A stretch of 56,351 nucleotides of DNA from an uncultured Acidobacteriota bacterium (GTDB lineage: Bacteria; Acidobacteriota; Thermoanaerobaculia; Gp7-AA8): contig CALMZP010000132.1 of NCBI GenBank assembly GCA_937870635.1, forward strand, positions 1-56,351, given 5' to 3'. The position numbers and the translations under genes are program-made. Positions 25,779 to 35,644 of the stretch are shown in pieces (within the stretch, counting starts at the first letter, position 1; each line of letters starts with the position of its first letter). The notes under the pieces were generated by a model, which did no database searches, had not been told where the DNA came from, and saw only the letters and a program-made list of their open reading frames with translations.

Positions 25779-27092
25779 TTACGGACGGCGGCGCGCCGGC
25801 TTCGACTGGAAAGGCCGCTGCGCAGGACGCGCTGAAGGACGCTCGGGACGGCTCGATCCGGACGGCCGGCTGCCGCGCTGCGCCGGACGGGATTGCTGCT
25901 GGAACCGGCGCGGACGATCCGCGAAGAGCGCTGCTTCCGCGCGGTCCTCGGGCGCTTCCGTGTAATCGAAATCGGTCGCCTTCTTGCGGGGGATGCCCCG
26001 GCTAATGAACTTCTCGAGTGCGCGGAGCGTCGACAGATCATCGGGCGTGATGAAGCTGATCGCGTCGCCGATCGCCTGCGCCCTCCCCGTCCGTCCGATG
26101 CGATGCACATAATCCTCAGGCTGCGGCGGGAAGTCGAAGTTCACGACGTGAGAGATCCCTTCGACGTCGATTCCGCGTGCCGCAATGTCGGTCGCGACGA
26201 GAACGCGCACCGTGCCGCTCTTGAAAGCCTTGAGGGCGGCCAGGCGCTGGTTCTGACTGCGGTTGGAGTGGAGCGTCGCGGTCGTGATTCCGGCCGCCGT
26301 CAATTTGCGCGCGATCTTGTCCGCACCATGTTTCGTGCGTGAGAAGACGAGCACCGACTCGAGTCCCTGGTCGCGCAAAAGATGGAGGAGCAGGGCGAGC
26401 TTGCGGCTCTTCGGAACCTCGTAAACGAGCTGTTCGACGCTCTCGGCGGGGTTGGCCCTCTTGCCAACCTGGACGACCTGAGGCGACTTCTGGAACTCAT
26501 GGGTGAGTGCCTCGATCTCCTTGGAGAGCGTGGCTGAGAACATGAGCGTCTGCCGCTTCTGCGGCAGCTTGCGGATGATCTGGCGGATCGAGGGAAGGAA
26601 TCCCATGTCCAGCATGCGATCGGCTTCGTCGAGGACCGCCACTTCCACGAGCGAGAAGTCGACGTGGCCCTGCTGCATGAGATCGATCAGGCGTCCCGGC
26701 GTGGCGATGACGATCTCGGTGCCGGCGCGCAACGCCTTGATCTGAGGCTGTTCTCCGACACCGCCGAAGACGGTGGCACAGCGAAGGCGGGTGTGCCGTG
26801 AATAGGCGCGTACGTTTTCTTCGATCTGTACGACGAGCTCGCGGGTCGGCGCCACGATGAGCGCGCGCATCCCCCGCCGGCCCATTGCGGAGCCGTGAGT
26901 GGTCAGGTTCTGAAGAATCGGGAGGACGAAGGCAGCCGTCTTGCCGGTCCCGGTCTGCGCGATGCCGATGACATCGTGGCCGGAAAGGACGACGGGGATT
27001 GCTTTGGTCTGGATGGGGGTCGGCTCTGTGTAACCGACTTCGCGGACTGCTTTGGTGATGCTCGGGCCAAGGCCCAGTGCTGTAAACGGCAT
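25779..27092 (-). CDS. DEAD-box RNA helicase (RhlE-like)
   Basis: An ATP-dependent RNA helicase of 437 aa. Motifs in order: Q motif PTPIQTKAIP, motif I AQTGTGKT (45-52), PTRELV, motif II VLDEADRM, motif III SAT, then in the second RecA domain VLVFSRTKHGAD, ATDIAARGIDV and HRIGRTGR. A basic, Arg/Pro/Ser/Gln-rich tail of about 60 residues (to PARRRP) likely binds RNA, as in RhlE proteins. ATG 27092 gives MPFTALGLGPSI, the usual beginning; longer frames have no homology. Likely role in ribosome assembly or mRNA decay. Confidence 0.94.
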   Translation of the reverse strand: MPFTALGLGPSITKAVREVGYTEPTPIQTKAIPVVLSGHDVIGIAQTGTGKTAAFVLPILQNLTTHGSAMGRRGMRALIVAPTRELVVQIEENVRAYSRHTRLRCATVFGGVGEQPQIKALRAGTEIVIATPGRLIDLMQQGHVDFSLVEVAVLDEADRMLDMGFLPSIRQIIRKLPQKRQTLMFSATLSKEIEALTHEFQKSPQVVQVGKRANPAESVEQLVYEVPKSRKLALLLHLLRDQGLESVLVFSRTKHGADKIARKLTAAGITTATLHSNRSQNQRLAALKAFKSGTVRVLVATDIAARGIDVEGISHVVNFDFPPQPEDYVHRIGRTGRAQAIGDAISFITPDDLSTLRALEKFISRGIPRKKATDFDYTEAPEDRAEAALFADRPRRFQQQSRPAQRGSRPSGSSRPERPSARPAQRPFQSKPARRRP

Positions 27093-27133: not shown

Positions 27134-27880
27134 TCAGCGCCGGACGCCCCGATACTCGGAAAGGATGCCCCACTTCACGTCGCGACGCACCTCGTCGAAT
27201 CCGGCGCGGCGCAGGGCATCCAGAATCACGGGCGGCGGGACGCACGATTCTGTCGTTTCCCAGTAATAGCGCATCATCCGTGCGGTGTCCCGTCGGCGCG
27301 TGCTGAGCCTCGCGATGAGCGGCGCAATCGTTCCCATGTAGAGACGAAGGAGCGCCCGACCAACCGAGGACTGAGGCATGGTGATCTCCATGATCACGAG
27401 CTGACCCCCGTTCCTCAGCACCCGTCGATACTCACGAAACGCCGCGCGAAGGTCTGACACATGACGCAGCGCGTAACCCATCGTGAGCATGTCGAACATC
27501 TCGTCACGGATCGGGAGCGCCTCGCCGACCGCGCGGATGAACTCTGCATCGGCCTTCCGCTTGGCGACATGCAGCATCCCGCCGCTCGGGTCGACCCCGA
27601 CCACGAGCCCCGACTTCGTGACGATCTCGCGAGCCACGGCAGCAACCGGGCCGGTGCCCGTGGCGACATCGAGCACGCGCATCCCTTCCTTCAATCCCGC
27701 GCCGCGCAGCACCTCGCCGCGATACCAGTAACCCGATCCGAAGGAGAGGATGCCGTTCACACGGTCGTAATCGCGCGAGCCCTTGTCGAAGAGATCGTTG
27801 ACCGCGCGCTGCCGGTCACGGTCATCGTCGTAGAAGGACGGAAGCGTCGGATGAGGAGCGATCGGTTCGGATGAAGTCAC
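27134..27880 (-). CDS. UbiE-family methyltransferase, second paralogue
   Basis: A 248-aa SAM-dependent methyltransferase of the UbiE/COQ5 family: FDKGSRDYDRVNGILSFGSG, motif I VLDVATGTGPVAAVA, MGYALRHVSDLRAAF in place of the FGIRNV signature, then RRVLRNGGQLVIMEITMP. It differs from the men-linked ubiE, so it may methylate another quinone or an unrelated substrate. Start uncertain: GTG 27880 is used; TTG codons at 27898 and 27889 would add six or three residues. It sits on the same strand as HPPD, separated by an R5 repeat. Confidence 0.8.
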   Translation of the reverse strand: MTSSEPIAPHPTLPSFYDDDRDRQRAVNDLFDKGSRDYDRVNGILSFGSGYWYRGEVLRGAGLKEGMRVLDVATGTGPVAAVAREIVTKSGLVVGVDPSGGMLHVAKRKADAEFIRAVGEALPIRDEMFDMLTMGYALRHVSDLRAAFREYRRVLRNGGQLVIMEITMPQSSVGRALLRLYMGTIAPLIARLSTRRRDTARMMRYYWETTESCVPPPVILDALRRAGFDEVRRDVKWGILSEYRGVRR

Positions 27881-27899: not shown

Positions 27900-28085
27900 A
27901 GTGCTTGGTGCTTGGTGCTTGGTGATGCGTGCTGGGTGCTGGTTCCGGTGTCATCCCGAGCGTAGCGAGGGACCTGGGGGCGCGGGAGGCAGGAGGGAAG
28001 ATCTTCGAGCCACCCTTCCCCCAGATCCCTCGCTCACGCTCGGGATGACATATCCCAGCACTCAGCACCAAGCACCAAGCACCAG
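27900..28085. repeat. R5 nested inverted repeat (TGCTTGG heptamers around a CATCCCGAGCG palindrome)
   Basis: An outer pair consists of tandem GTGCTTG units (27900-27942) facing CACCAAG units (28055-28085). Nested inside is a second inverted pair, TGTCATCCCGAGCGTAGCGA (27949-27968) against CGCTCACGCTCGGGATGACA (28031-28050). It ends two bases from the HPPD stop. Inner and outer elements look like separate families stacked in one site. Confidence 0.88.
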
Positions 28086-33462: not shown

Positions 33463-34239
33463 TCATTTTGGTCGATCGCGTTCTGCGAGCAGTTGCGCAG
33501 CCGTACTCACCGCGATCTCATACGGCGAGTCCGATCCCACCGGCAGTCCGATCGGACAGTAAAACGCTCGCTGCGCTCCCTCGGGCAGCCCCGCCTCGGC
33601 GACATCCTGCCGAAGACGCTTGGCCTTGGCGTTGCTCCCGATCACACCGACGTACGGGAAAGTGCGCGTGCGCAGAATCTCGAGAAGGATCGGCTTGTCG
33701 GTCGTATGCCCCATCGTCATCAGCACCACGAACGAATCATCGGGGATCCGCGCAACCTCGGCGGGCATGTCAGAGCTCACCATCTTCGTCAGCTTCGGTG
33801 AAGCGACCAGCCGGTCGAGCCACTCCGTTCGCGGGTCGATGCACGTCACCCGGCAATCGAGCTTCACGAGAATCTCAATGAGCGCTTGCGCGACGTGGCC
33901 TGCGCCGAAAACAACGATGTTCCACCGCGTCGCGTTGAATAGCTCGAAGTAGACGCGGACAATTCCGCCACAAGTCATCCCGATGTCTTTGTTGAGGCTC
34001 CACTGAAAGAACTCGGTCTTCGGGAGCGAGGAGTCGCCGAGCAACCGCTTTGCCTCCTCGATGCAGCGGACTTCGATCTTCCCGCCGCCGACGGTCCCGA
34101 AATGGCGTCCCGCGGCGGTGACGAGCATCTTCGATCCGCGATCCTGCGGCGTCGAACCCACGGTATCGACGACCGTGACCGCAACGAACGGCGCGCCAGC
34201 CGCTGAAAGCTCGTTGAGCGCTTCGAAAAAGGTGACCAT
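33463..34239 (-). CDS. xdhC: XdhC-family molybdenum-cofactor chaperone
   Basis: XdhC proteins bind and help sulfurate the molybdenum cofactor and insert it into xanthine dehydrogenase. The N-terminal domain has TVVDTVGSTPQDRGSKMLV and TVGGGKIEVRCI with MTCGGIVRVYFE; the C-terminal Rossmann-like domain starts at NIVVFGAGHVAQAL and ends GLPVGSDSPYEIAVSTAAQL. ATG 34239 (258 aa) is chosen because a GGAG site lies six bases upstream; a TTG at 34251 would add four residues. It lies about 8 kb from the xdh subunit genes. Confidence 0.92.
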   Translation of the reverse strand: MVTFFEALNELSAAGAPFVAVTVVDTVGSTPQDRGSKMLVTAAGRHFGTVGGGKIEVRCIEEAKRLLGDSSLPKTEFFQWSLNKDIGMTCGGIVRVYFELFNATRWNIVVFGAGHVAQALIEILVKLDCRVTCIDPRTEWLDRLVASPKLTKMVSSDMPAEVARIPDDSFVVLMTMGHTTDKPILLEILRTRTFPYVGVIGSNAKAKRLRQDVAEAGLPEGAQRAFYCPIGLPVGSDSPYEIAVSTAAQLLAERDRPK

Positions 34240-34251
34240 GTGACGCTCCAA

Positions 34252-34359
34252 GATGTCATGGTGTCAGGTCTGGAAAAACAACTTTTCTTCCAGGATTGTT
34301 TGTTGGACTCAACAATTCTGTTAGAAAAGTTGTTTTTCCAGACCTGACACCATGACATC
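34252..34359. repeat. R7 element: 37-bp perfect inverted repeat
   Basis: Arms at 34252-34288 and 34323-34359 are perfect reverse complements over 37 bp, around a 34-bp centre that carries its own small hairpin (ATTGTT...AACAAT). The arm tips read GATGTCATGGTGTCAGG. The right arm contains the allantoinase ATG and its first codons, and the left end is 12 bases from the xdhC ATG. It is AT-richer than its surroundings. It looks like a non-autonomous mobile palindrome (MITE/REP type); no transposase is in the window. Confidence 0.9.
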
Positions 34360-35644
34360 CATCCGGTCGCAGAGAGTCGTGCTTCCCGACGGTGTGAGGC
34401 CGGCGGCGATCGAGTTCGCCTCGGTCATCCGCCGGATCACGGGTTTCGACCAGATCGAGGGCGCTGTCGATTACGGCGACCTCGTGATCATGCCCGGCGT
34501 CGTCGATTCGCACGTTCACGTCAACGAGCCGGGGCGGACGGAGTGGGAAGGATTCACTTCGGCGACGCGCGCCGCGGCGGCGGGCGGGACGACGACCATC
34601 GTCGACATGCCGCTCAACTCCATCCCCGCCACGACGACGCTCGAAGCGTTGCGGATCAAGAAGCGGGCGCTCGAGGGTCAGTGCTTCGTCGACGTCGCGC
34701 TGTGGGGCGGCGTCATTCCGGGCAACCTCGGCGAATTGCGCCCCATGCTCGAGGAAGGCGCACGAGGCTTCAAATGCTTTCTCGTTCACTCCGGCGTCGA
34801 CGATTTCCCCAACGTATCGCCCGGCGAGCTGCGCGCGGCCGCGCGCGAGCTCGCGCCGACGGGTGCGCCGCTTCTCGTCCACGCGGAGCTGCCGGCCCCG
34901 ATCGATCGGGCCGCGCGAAAGGTCGCCGGCGCCGATCAACAATCCTATGGAACGTACCTCGACTCACGGCCACGCGCTGCCGAAGACGAGGCGATCGCAC
35001 TGTTGCGCGACGTCTGCGCAGAGACCGGGGCGTGGATCCATATTGTCCACCTGTCGTCAGCGAGCGCGGTCGCAATCGTGAAAGACGCGCAGTCAGCGGG
35101 ACTCAGGCTCACCGCTGAAACGACTCCGCATTACCTTCACTTCGACGCGGAGACGATTCCTGCGGGCCGCAACGAGTTCAAGTGCGCGCCTCCGATTCGC
35201 GAACGCGCAAACCGCGAGCAGCTCTGGCAGGGCCTGGCCGATGACACCATCGAGATGATCGTCTCCGATCACTCTCCGTGCACGCCCGAACTCAAACGAG
35301 GCACCTTCCTCACGGCCTGGGGCGGCATCGCGTCCGTCCAGTTCGTCCTGCCCGTGATCTGGACCGAGGCGCGTCAGCGGGGATTTGAACTCACGGATCT
35401 CGCGAGATGGCTCTGCGGCCGCACCGCCCGGCTCGCGCGGCTGTCCCGGAAAGGGGCGATCGAGCCCGGCCGCGACGCCGACTTCGCCATCTGGTCGCCA
35501 GAGGAGACATTCAGAGTGGACGACTCGGTCATCCAGCATCGCCACAAGGTCACGCCATACAAAGGCGAAACGTTGTACGGCGTGGTGAAAGAAACCTGGG
35601 TGCGGGGTGCGCTGGCGGGCGCGAGTCGCGGAACGCTGCTCTAA
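34352..35644 (+). CDS. allB: Allantoinase
   Basis: A cyclic amidohydrolase opening allantoin to allantoate. The metal site is visible: VVDSHVHVNEPG (HxH), the carboxylated Lys in GFKCFLVHSG, His in LLVHAEL and HIVHLSS, and Asp in VSDHSPC. The segment GGTTTIVDMPLNSIPATT is typical of allantoinases. Length 430 aa. The ATG lies within the R7 palindrome arm, so the N-terminal MTSI comes from that element and initiation may be influenced by its hairpin. No stronger start is seen in the next codons. Confidence 0.93.
   Translation: MTSIRSQRVVLPDGVRPAAIEFASVIRRITGFDQIEGAVDYGDLVIMPGVVDSHVHVNEPGRTEWEGFTSATRAAAAGGTTTIVDMPLNSIPATTTLEALRIKKRALEGQCFVDVALWGGVIPGNLGELRPMLEEGARGFKCFLVHSGVDDFPNVSPGELRAAARELAPTGAPLLVHAELPAPIDRAARKVAGADQQSYGTYLDSRPRAAEDEAIALLRDVCAETGAWIHIVHLSSASAVAIVKDAQSAGLRLTAETTPHYLHFDAETIPAGRNEFKCAPPIRERANREQLWQGLADDTIEMIVSDHSPCTPELKRGTFLTAWGGIASVQFVLPVIWTEARQRGFELTDLARWLCGRTARLARLSRKGAIEPGRDADFAIWSPEETFRVDDSVIQHRHKVTPYKGETLYGVVKETWVRGALAGASRGTLL

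Follow-up and report, generated by a model that had tools for sequence, protein, structure and literature searches.

A palindrome at the start codon of an acidobacterial allantoinase gene is probably a REPIN-like dimer of TIRtron terminal repeats

The window analysed here, a 56,351-nucleotide stretch of DNA from an uncultured soil bacterium of the Acidobacteriota, contains a divergent gene pair: xdhC on the minus strand (33463-34239; TIGR02964, 176 bits) and the allantoinase gene allB on the plus strand (34352-35644; TIGR03178, 526.5 bits against a cutoff of 358). Since xdhC starts at 34239, the palindrome between the two genes (34252-34359) occupies nearly the entire 112-bp gap, as the original prediction had stated. 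The perfect 37-bp outer inverted arms that it described were confirmed at 34252-34288 and 34323-34359, with the allantoinase ATG (34352-34354) inside the right arm. Extended inward to 34252-34300 and 34311-34359, the arms are complementary at 46 of 49 positions, the exceptions being arm positions 38, 39 and 43. Folding of the single strand as DNA gave -49.7 kcal/mol (z = -14.5), and no shuffled sequence folded as well.

The part of this copy that is conserved in its repeat family runs from 34255 to 34356 (GTCAT...ATGAC). The outermost GAT and ATC (34252-34254 and 34357-34359) are a mirrored, locus-specific flank that is not conserved in the family. At the left border lies the pentamer GTCAT (34255-34259, plus strand), part of a YGTCMT motif that is present at nearly all family ends and may be a target or cleavage site. 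The left arm (34260-34291, plus strand) is the terminal inverted repeat GGTGTCAGGTCTGGAAAAACAACTTTTCTTCC, of subtype A, and is identical to the left end of a transposase-bearing element on contig C157 of the same genome. A centre consisting of a loop and a partly paired inner stem (34292-34319) leads into the right arm, an inverted copy (34320-34351, minus strand), and the right border pentamer ATGAC (34352-34356, plus strand) includes the allantoinase start codon. In the window copy, two bases in the inner part of the right arm are substituted relative to the family; in that arm GTTAG replaces the GGAAG of other copies, giving an extended -10-like sequence, TGTTAGAAA, on the plus strand. A promoter scan of the palindrome scored no promoter consensus, and a terminator scan of 34252-34359 (GC-rich stem followed by a T run) found no site.

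We searched for the family in the window's own genome (4.5 Mb in 171 contigs, 98.7% complete). Other copies, the search for which had been proposed with the original prediction, were found in about 40 places: the border pattern GTCMTGGTGTCAGGTCT detected 80 ends genome-wide, compared to 1 for the reversed control. The ends share the motif YGTC[A/C]T-GGTGTCAGGTCT, and most are paired in complete palindromic dimers (about 31, measuring 83-127 bp without the pentamers). Of the remainder, about seven ends are solo, eight fall at the ends of contigs, and one pair has a gene between its two members. Borders read YGTCMT-GGTGTCAGG in nearly all copies, the base preceding GTCMT being T in 54 cases, C in 20 and another base in 5, and the GT[AG]G tetranucleotide is absent from the hairpin foot. 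In most copies the core of the terminal repeat is GGTGTCAG, one base off the GGGGWSAS motif that some published TIRs have in common; a GGGGTCAG core occurs in two ends of this genome (contigs C2 and C26) and also in relatives. It should also be noted that contigs C2, C11, C26, C56, C124, C141, C170 and C123 end inside or beside a copy, so the copies counted here are a minimum; short-read assembly probably breaks at the hairpin.

Many copies of the family lie at gene borders. Among 75 unique ends, scored for stop codons preceded by at least 60 open codons, 27 lie 1-4 nt past a stop, compared to 1.8% of random positions. TAG accounts for 14 of these 27 stops, an over-representation compared with 69 of 255 genes from a crude gene caller. 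A tendency to lie near gene ends is already known, as published REPs occur within 20 bp of gene 3' ends (PMC3733652), though the spacing here is tight. Stop-adjacent GTCMT without the element was seen 7 times in 240 kb, with about 10 expected; this is neither a clear depletion nor a clear enrichment, and pre-existing stop-plus-GTCMT sites are therefore not obviously the target. Several copies are found at start codons or separate divergent genes. Six genes with clear homology are predicted to begin at a border ATG: those of allantoinase, signal peptidase I, a LigD polymerase domain, a pyridine nucleotide-disulphide oxidoreductase (MTYDLIVLGSGPAG...), a zinc alcohol dehydrogenase and an alpha/beta hydrolase. 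A palindrome particular to allantoinase is not supported; at least five unrelated genes also begin at a copy's border ATG.

The gene-enclosing pair of ends is on contig C157, at 26075-26091 (plus strand) and 27227-27243 (minus strand). These inverted ends are 1.17 kb apart and enclose a 372-aa Y1_Tnp open reading frame, the only gene in the genome that was found flanked by family ends. Its product matches Pfam Y1_Tnp at 33.7 bits (cutoff 23), carries NHVH and YLPLNP as its HUH and Y--NP catalytic motifs, and resembles the TnpA-REP structure PDB 4er8 (E 2e-7); its similarity to the REP-associated tyrosine transposase model falls below that model's cutoff. No helix-turn-helix match was found in its C-terminal extension in Pfam up to E = 1, while subclass 2.1 proteins usually have such a domain. 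Homologues of the C157 protein (E <= 1e-50) were found in 28 of the 149 same-class genomes searched, the window's own included. At about 20 of the homologue loci fetched within the class, the gene is flanked by inverted repeats, which mostly begin GGGGTCAGGTCT, and the relatives G002 and G004 also have dispersed inverted dimers of a similar kind. A scan of the genome-contig collection with the transposase returned no match. The window's genome has three Y1_Tnp genes, and only that of C157 has the family ends. Two further Y1 transposase genes, distinct from the C157 family, were observed, one with inverted repeats GAGGGTCACGTCTGCACTTCGCAC around it (L011, G000 C170:22500-26500) and one with inverted repeats GGAGCGCGGGCGACCTCGCCCGCG nearby (L012, G000 C139:5000-9500).

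The two arms of a copy resemble each other far more than they resemble the arms of other copies. Within-copy mismatches totalled 13 over 28 dimers, compared to at least 56 in each of 20,000 permuted re-pairings. Arms fall into subtypes A (AAAAACAACTTTT) and B (ACATTGGACATTT and kin), which are never mixed within one palindrome. The C157 element, however, has one end of subtype A and the other of subtype B. This suggests that the arms of palindromes were homogenised, or born, by copying one another. The original prediction offered gene conversion as one origin of the perfect arms, and this is supported in so far as each copy has homogenised arms, the outcome expected of gene conversion or template switching. 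Template switching at quasi-palindromes is a known arm-homogenising process (PMC3820800, PMC8604942).

Mirroring extends to the borders and slightly beyond. In complete dimers the A/C variant of the border pentamer is always mirrored on the opposite side; for example, the near-identical copies L119 and L121 have GTCAT/ATGAC and GTCCT/AGGAC, respectively, with both sides matching in each. Of 60 comparisons across the element at flank positions -7/-8, 33 were complementary where 19 were expected (about 1 in 10,000); pairing falls to background at -9 and beyond. A direct target duplication of 3-5 bp was not consistently present around the copies, whichever offset was tried. Hairpin-templated insertion would likewise homogenise the arms and would account for the mirrored flank.

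Comparison with the orthologous promoter region, also proposed as a check, showed divergent xdhC-allB pairs without the window element in three relatives (G002, G008 and G015), among them a family-mate of the window organism (G008); the gap in G015 is 24 bp. No same-genus genome showing a true empty site was found. Allantoinase homologues begin 2-4 codons ahead of a conserved R-S-R/Q-x-V, and the window gene does likewise. A crude caller chose a GTG nine codons further in, but the N-termini of the homologues favour the ATG. Because the homologues share this start codon without having the element, the ATG may have belonged to the host's own sequence where the element inserted, and the earlier claim that the element supplies it is weakened to that extent. 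We lean modestly towards a host origin, in which the ATG belonged to an ATGAC target of which GATGTCAT on the left is a mirrored duplicate; alternatively, the element may have supplied the ATG in register.

Five homologues (L053, L051, L052, L054 and L060) have a conserved TANNNT hexamer 6-8 nt ahead of the allB start, which suggests leaderless allB mRNAs in those homologues. It is absent before the window ATG. We speculate that transcription directed by TGTTAGAAA would begin within the right arm, leaving the allantoinase ATG open. In two relatives (L052 in G008 and L051 in G002), the xdhC-allB gap holds repeats that begin GTCATCCCGAGCG or GTCATTCCGAGCG and adjoin the xdhC start, and this spot thus seems prone to YGTCAT-bordered repeats.

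The palindrome at allB thus belongs to a genomic repeat family, has ends in common with a transposase gene, has arms that covary and flanks that mirror each other, and sits at a gene border. From the dimers found genome-wide, the pair of ends flanking a transposase and the GGGGTCAGGTCT-flanked transposases of relatives, we conclude that it is in all likelihood a non-autonomous element of REPIN-like type, made of two TIRtron terminal repeats. Two TIRtron inverted terminal repeats would have joined head to head to form a miniature element, which the C157 enzyme, a Y1/HUH single-strand transposase, probably moved in trans. The transposase would recognise the hairpin on single-stranded DNA and cut or join beside YGTCMT; in the window, insertion would have adjoined ATGAC, the allantoinase gene's own start. 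During replication, hairpin-templated copying or template switching may keep the arms identical and mirror a few flanking bases. The claim of a recent insertion is supported as regards the insertion itself, as the element recurs across the genome and is missing from the relatives' gaps, while its recency is uncertain given the two inner right-arm substitutions. Any effect on allantoinase would be a by-product: the gap would have grown from about 15-25 bp to 112 bp, displacing the ancestral promoter position, and the start codon would have survived.

Other explanations fit part of these data. The original prediction proposed that the allantoinase ATG is buried in the stem of the mRNA, and a translational control hairpin of this kind would repress allB, in transcripts starting left of the element, until the 37-bp stem is opened. 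A full-length RNA does pair the ATG fully, with a fold of about -100 kcal/mol. However, the ATG is fully paired only in transcripts that begin at 34254 or further left, and the mechanism would work only for starts no further right than about 34254-34259, which places them some 20 bp or less from where the divergent xdhC begins; the ATG is largely open for any transcript that starts from 34260 on. With no promoter consensus scored, and with about 40 copies of a hairpin-forming mobile element dispersed among unrelated places, the palindrome is not a purpose-built translation switch, and we consider the control hairpin improbable; regulation of allantoinase by the palindrome is possible but unsupported. 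A role at mRNA ends is somewhat more credible, if still unlikely. Here the copies would be kept as bidirectional terminators or mRNA-end regulators, their adjacency to stop codons reflecting selection and the window copy being a chance by-product. The 27 stop-adjacent ends and the published proximity of REPs to 3' ends fit this reading, and E. coli REPs no more than 15 nt from a stop have been reported to stall ribosomes (PMC12306157). A target preference would produce the same stop-codon pattern, however, and the reading has to accommodate the copies at start codons or between divergent genes as well as an allantoinase-locus copy in which no terminator-like site was scored.

The remaining alternatives concern how the element moves. 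Small size and terminal inverted repeats would suit a classical MITE of a DDE transposase with target-site duplications, but the direct duplications are lacking and the transposase with family ends is Y1/HUH rather than DDE, which makes this origin highly improbable. We also consider, as an outside chance, self-templated hairpin synthesis at insertion by a rolling-hairpin-like HUH mechanism, with YGTC-recognising enzymes being the missing transposases of CGTC-tagged repeats. A single arm would join beside a host YGTCMT, fold back and be copied through into the flank, yielding a perfect palindrome and an inverted, not direct, target duplication.

As a TIRtron-derived dimer, the element is an ordinary kind of mobile repeat with instructive anatomy; the kind is already known and the member is new. 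TIRtron/TIRYT terminal repeat dimers have been described in Acidobacteria, among others (Koribacter ORF 1552; Di Nocera et al. 2013, PMC3733652), and this arrangement has mostly been placed in TnpA-Y1 subclass 2.1 (Quentin et al., PMC6006769). The window family shares with them a Y1/HUH gene between long inverted repeats, repeats that are also dispersed as inverted dimers and, in relatives of the window genome, a GGGGTCAG-type core. It differs from them in having long near-perfect palindromes (arms of about 40-48 bp) with a GGTGTCAG core, a YGTCMT border that hardly varies, flanks mirrored in a locus-specific way and a tight spacing from stop codons. REPINs and GTAG REPs with their RAYTs are similar in being inverted repeat pairs near gene 3' ends that a Y1/HUH enzyme probably moves in trans, but the window family is without a GTAG/GGAG tag, and the C157 transposase is long (372 aa, NHVH motif), whereas RAYTs of the E. 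coli/Pseudomonas type are short. The IS200/IS605 group belongs to the same enzyme superfamily, and there too a target motif adjoins the left end; IS200 TnpA, however, is about 150 aa with Y---Q, in contrast to YLPLNP in the C157 protein.

The puzzling palindrome is thus connected with single-strand DNA transposases of a class that has been little studied. Its family provides a clean natural data set on the origin of their palindromes: the arms covary, the flanks are mirrored, and insertions occur at stop as well as start codons. It also carries a warning for annotation, as a start codon or 5' region at a border of this kind derives from mobile DNA or was invaded by it. CGTC-tagged REPs, for which no transposase is known (PMC3733652), share the outer YGTC-AT border and are mostly head-to-head dimers, but have 8-9-bp stems and 4-5-nt loops, unlike the arms of about 40 bp and the associated transposase of the window family. 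A second, unrelated palindromic family, (T)GTCATCCCGAGCG...CGCTCGGGATGACA, was observed in the window at 27950-28049. It is about 100 bp long and abundant in the genome, and the 1-4-nt stop-codon spacing was not seen for it. It has the same YGTCAT border as the family at the allantoinase start and resembles CGTC/TGTC-tagged head-to-head REP dimers. The YGTC border common to the C157 family, these palindromes and the CGTC-tagged repeats offers a testable lead on the enzyme of the latter.
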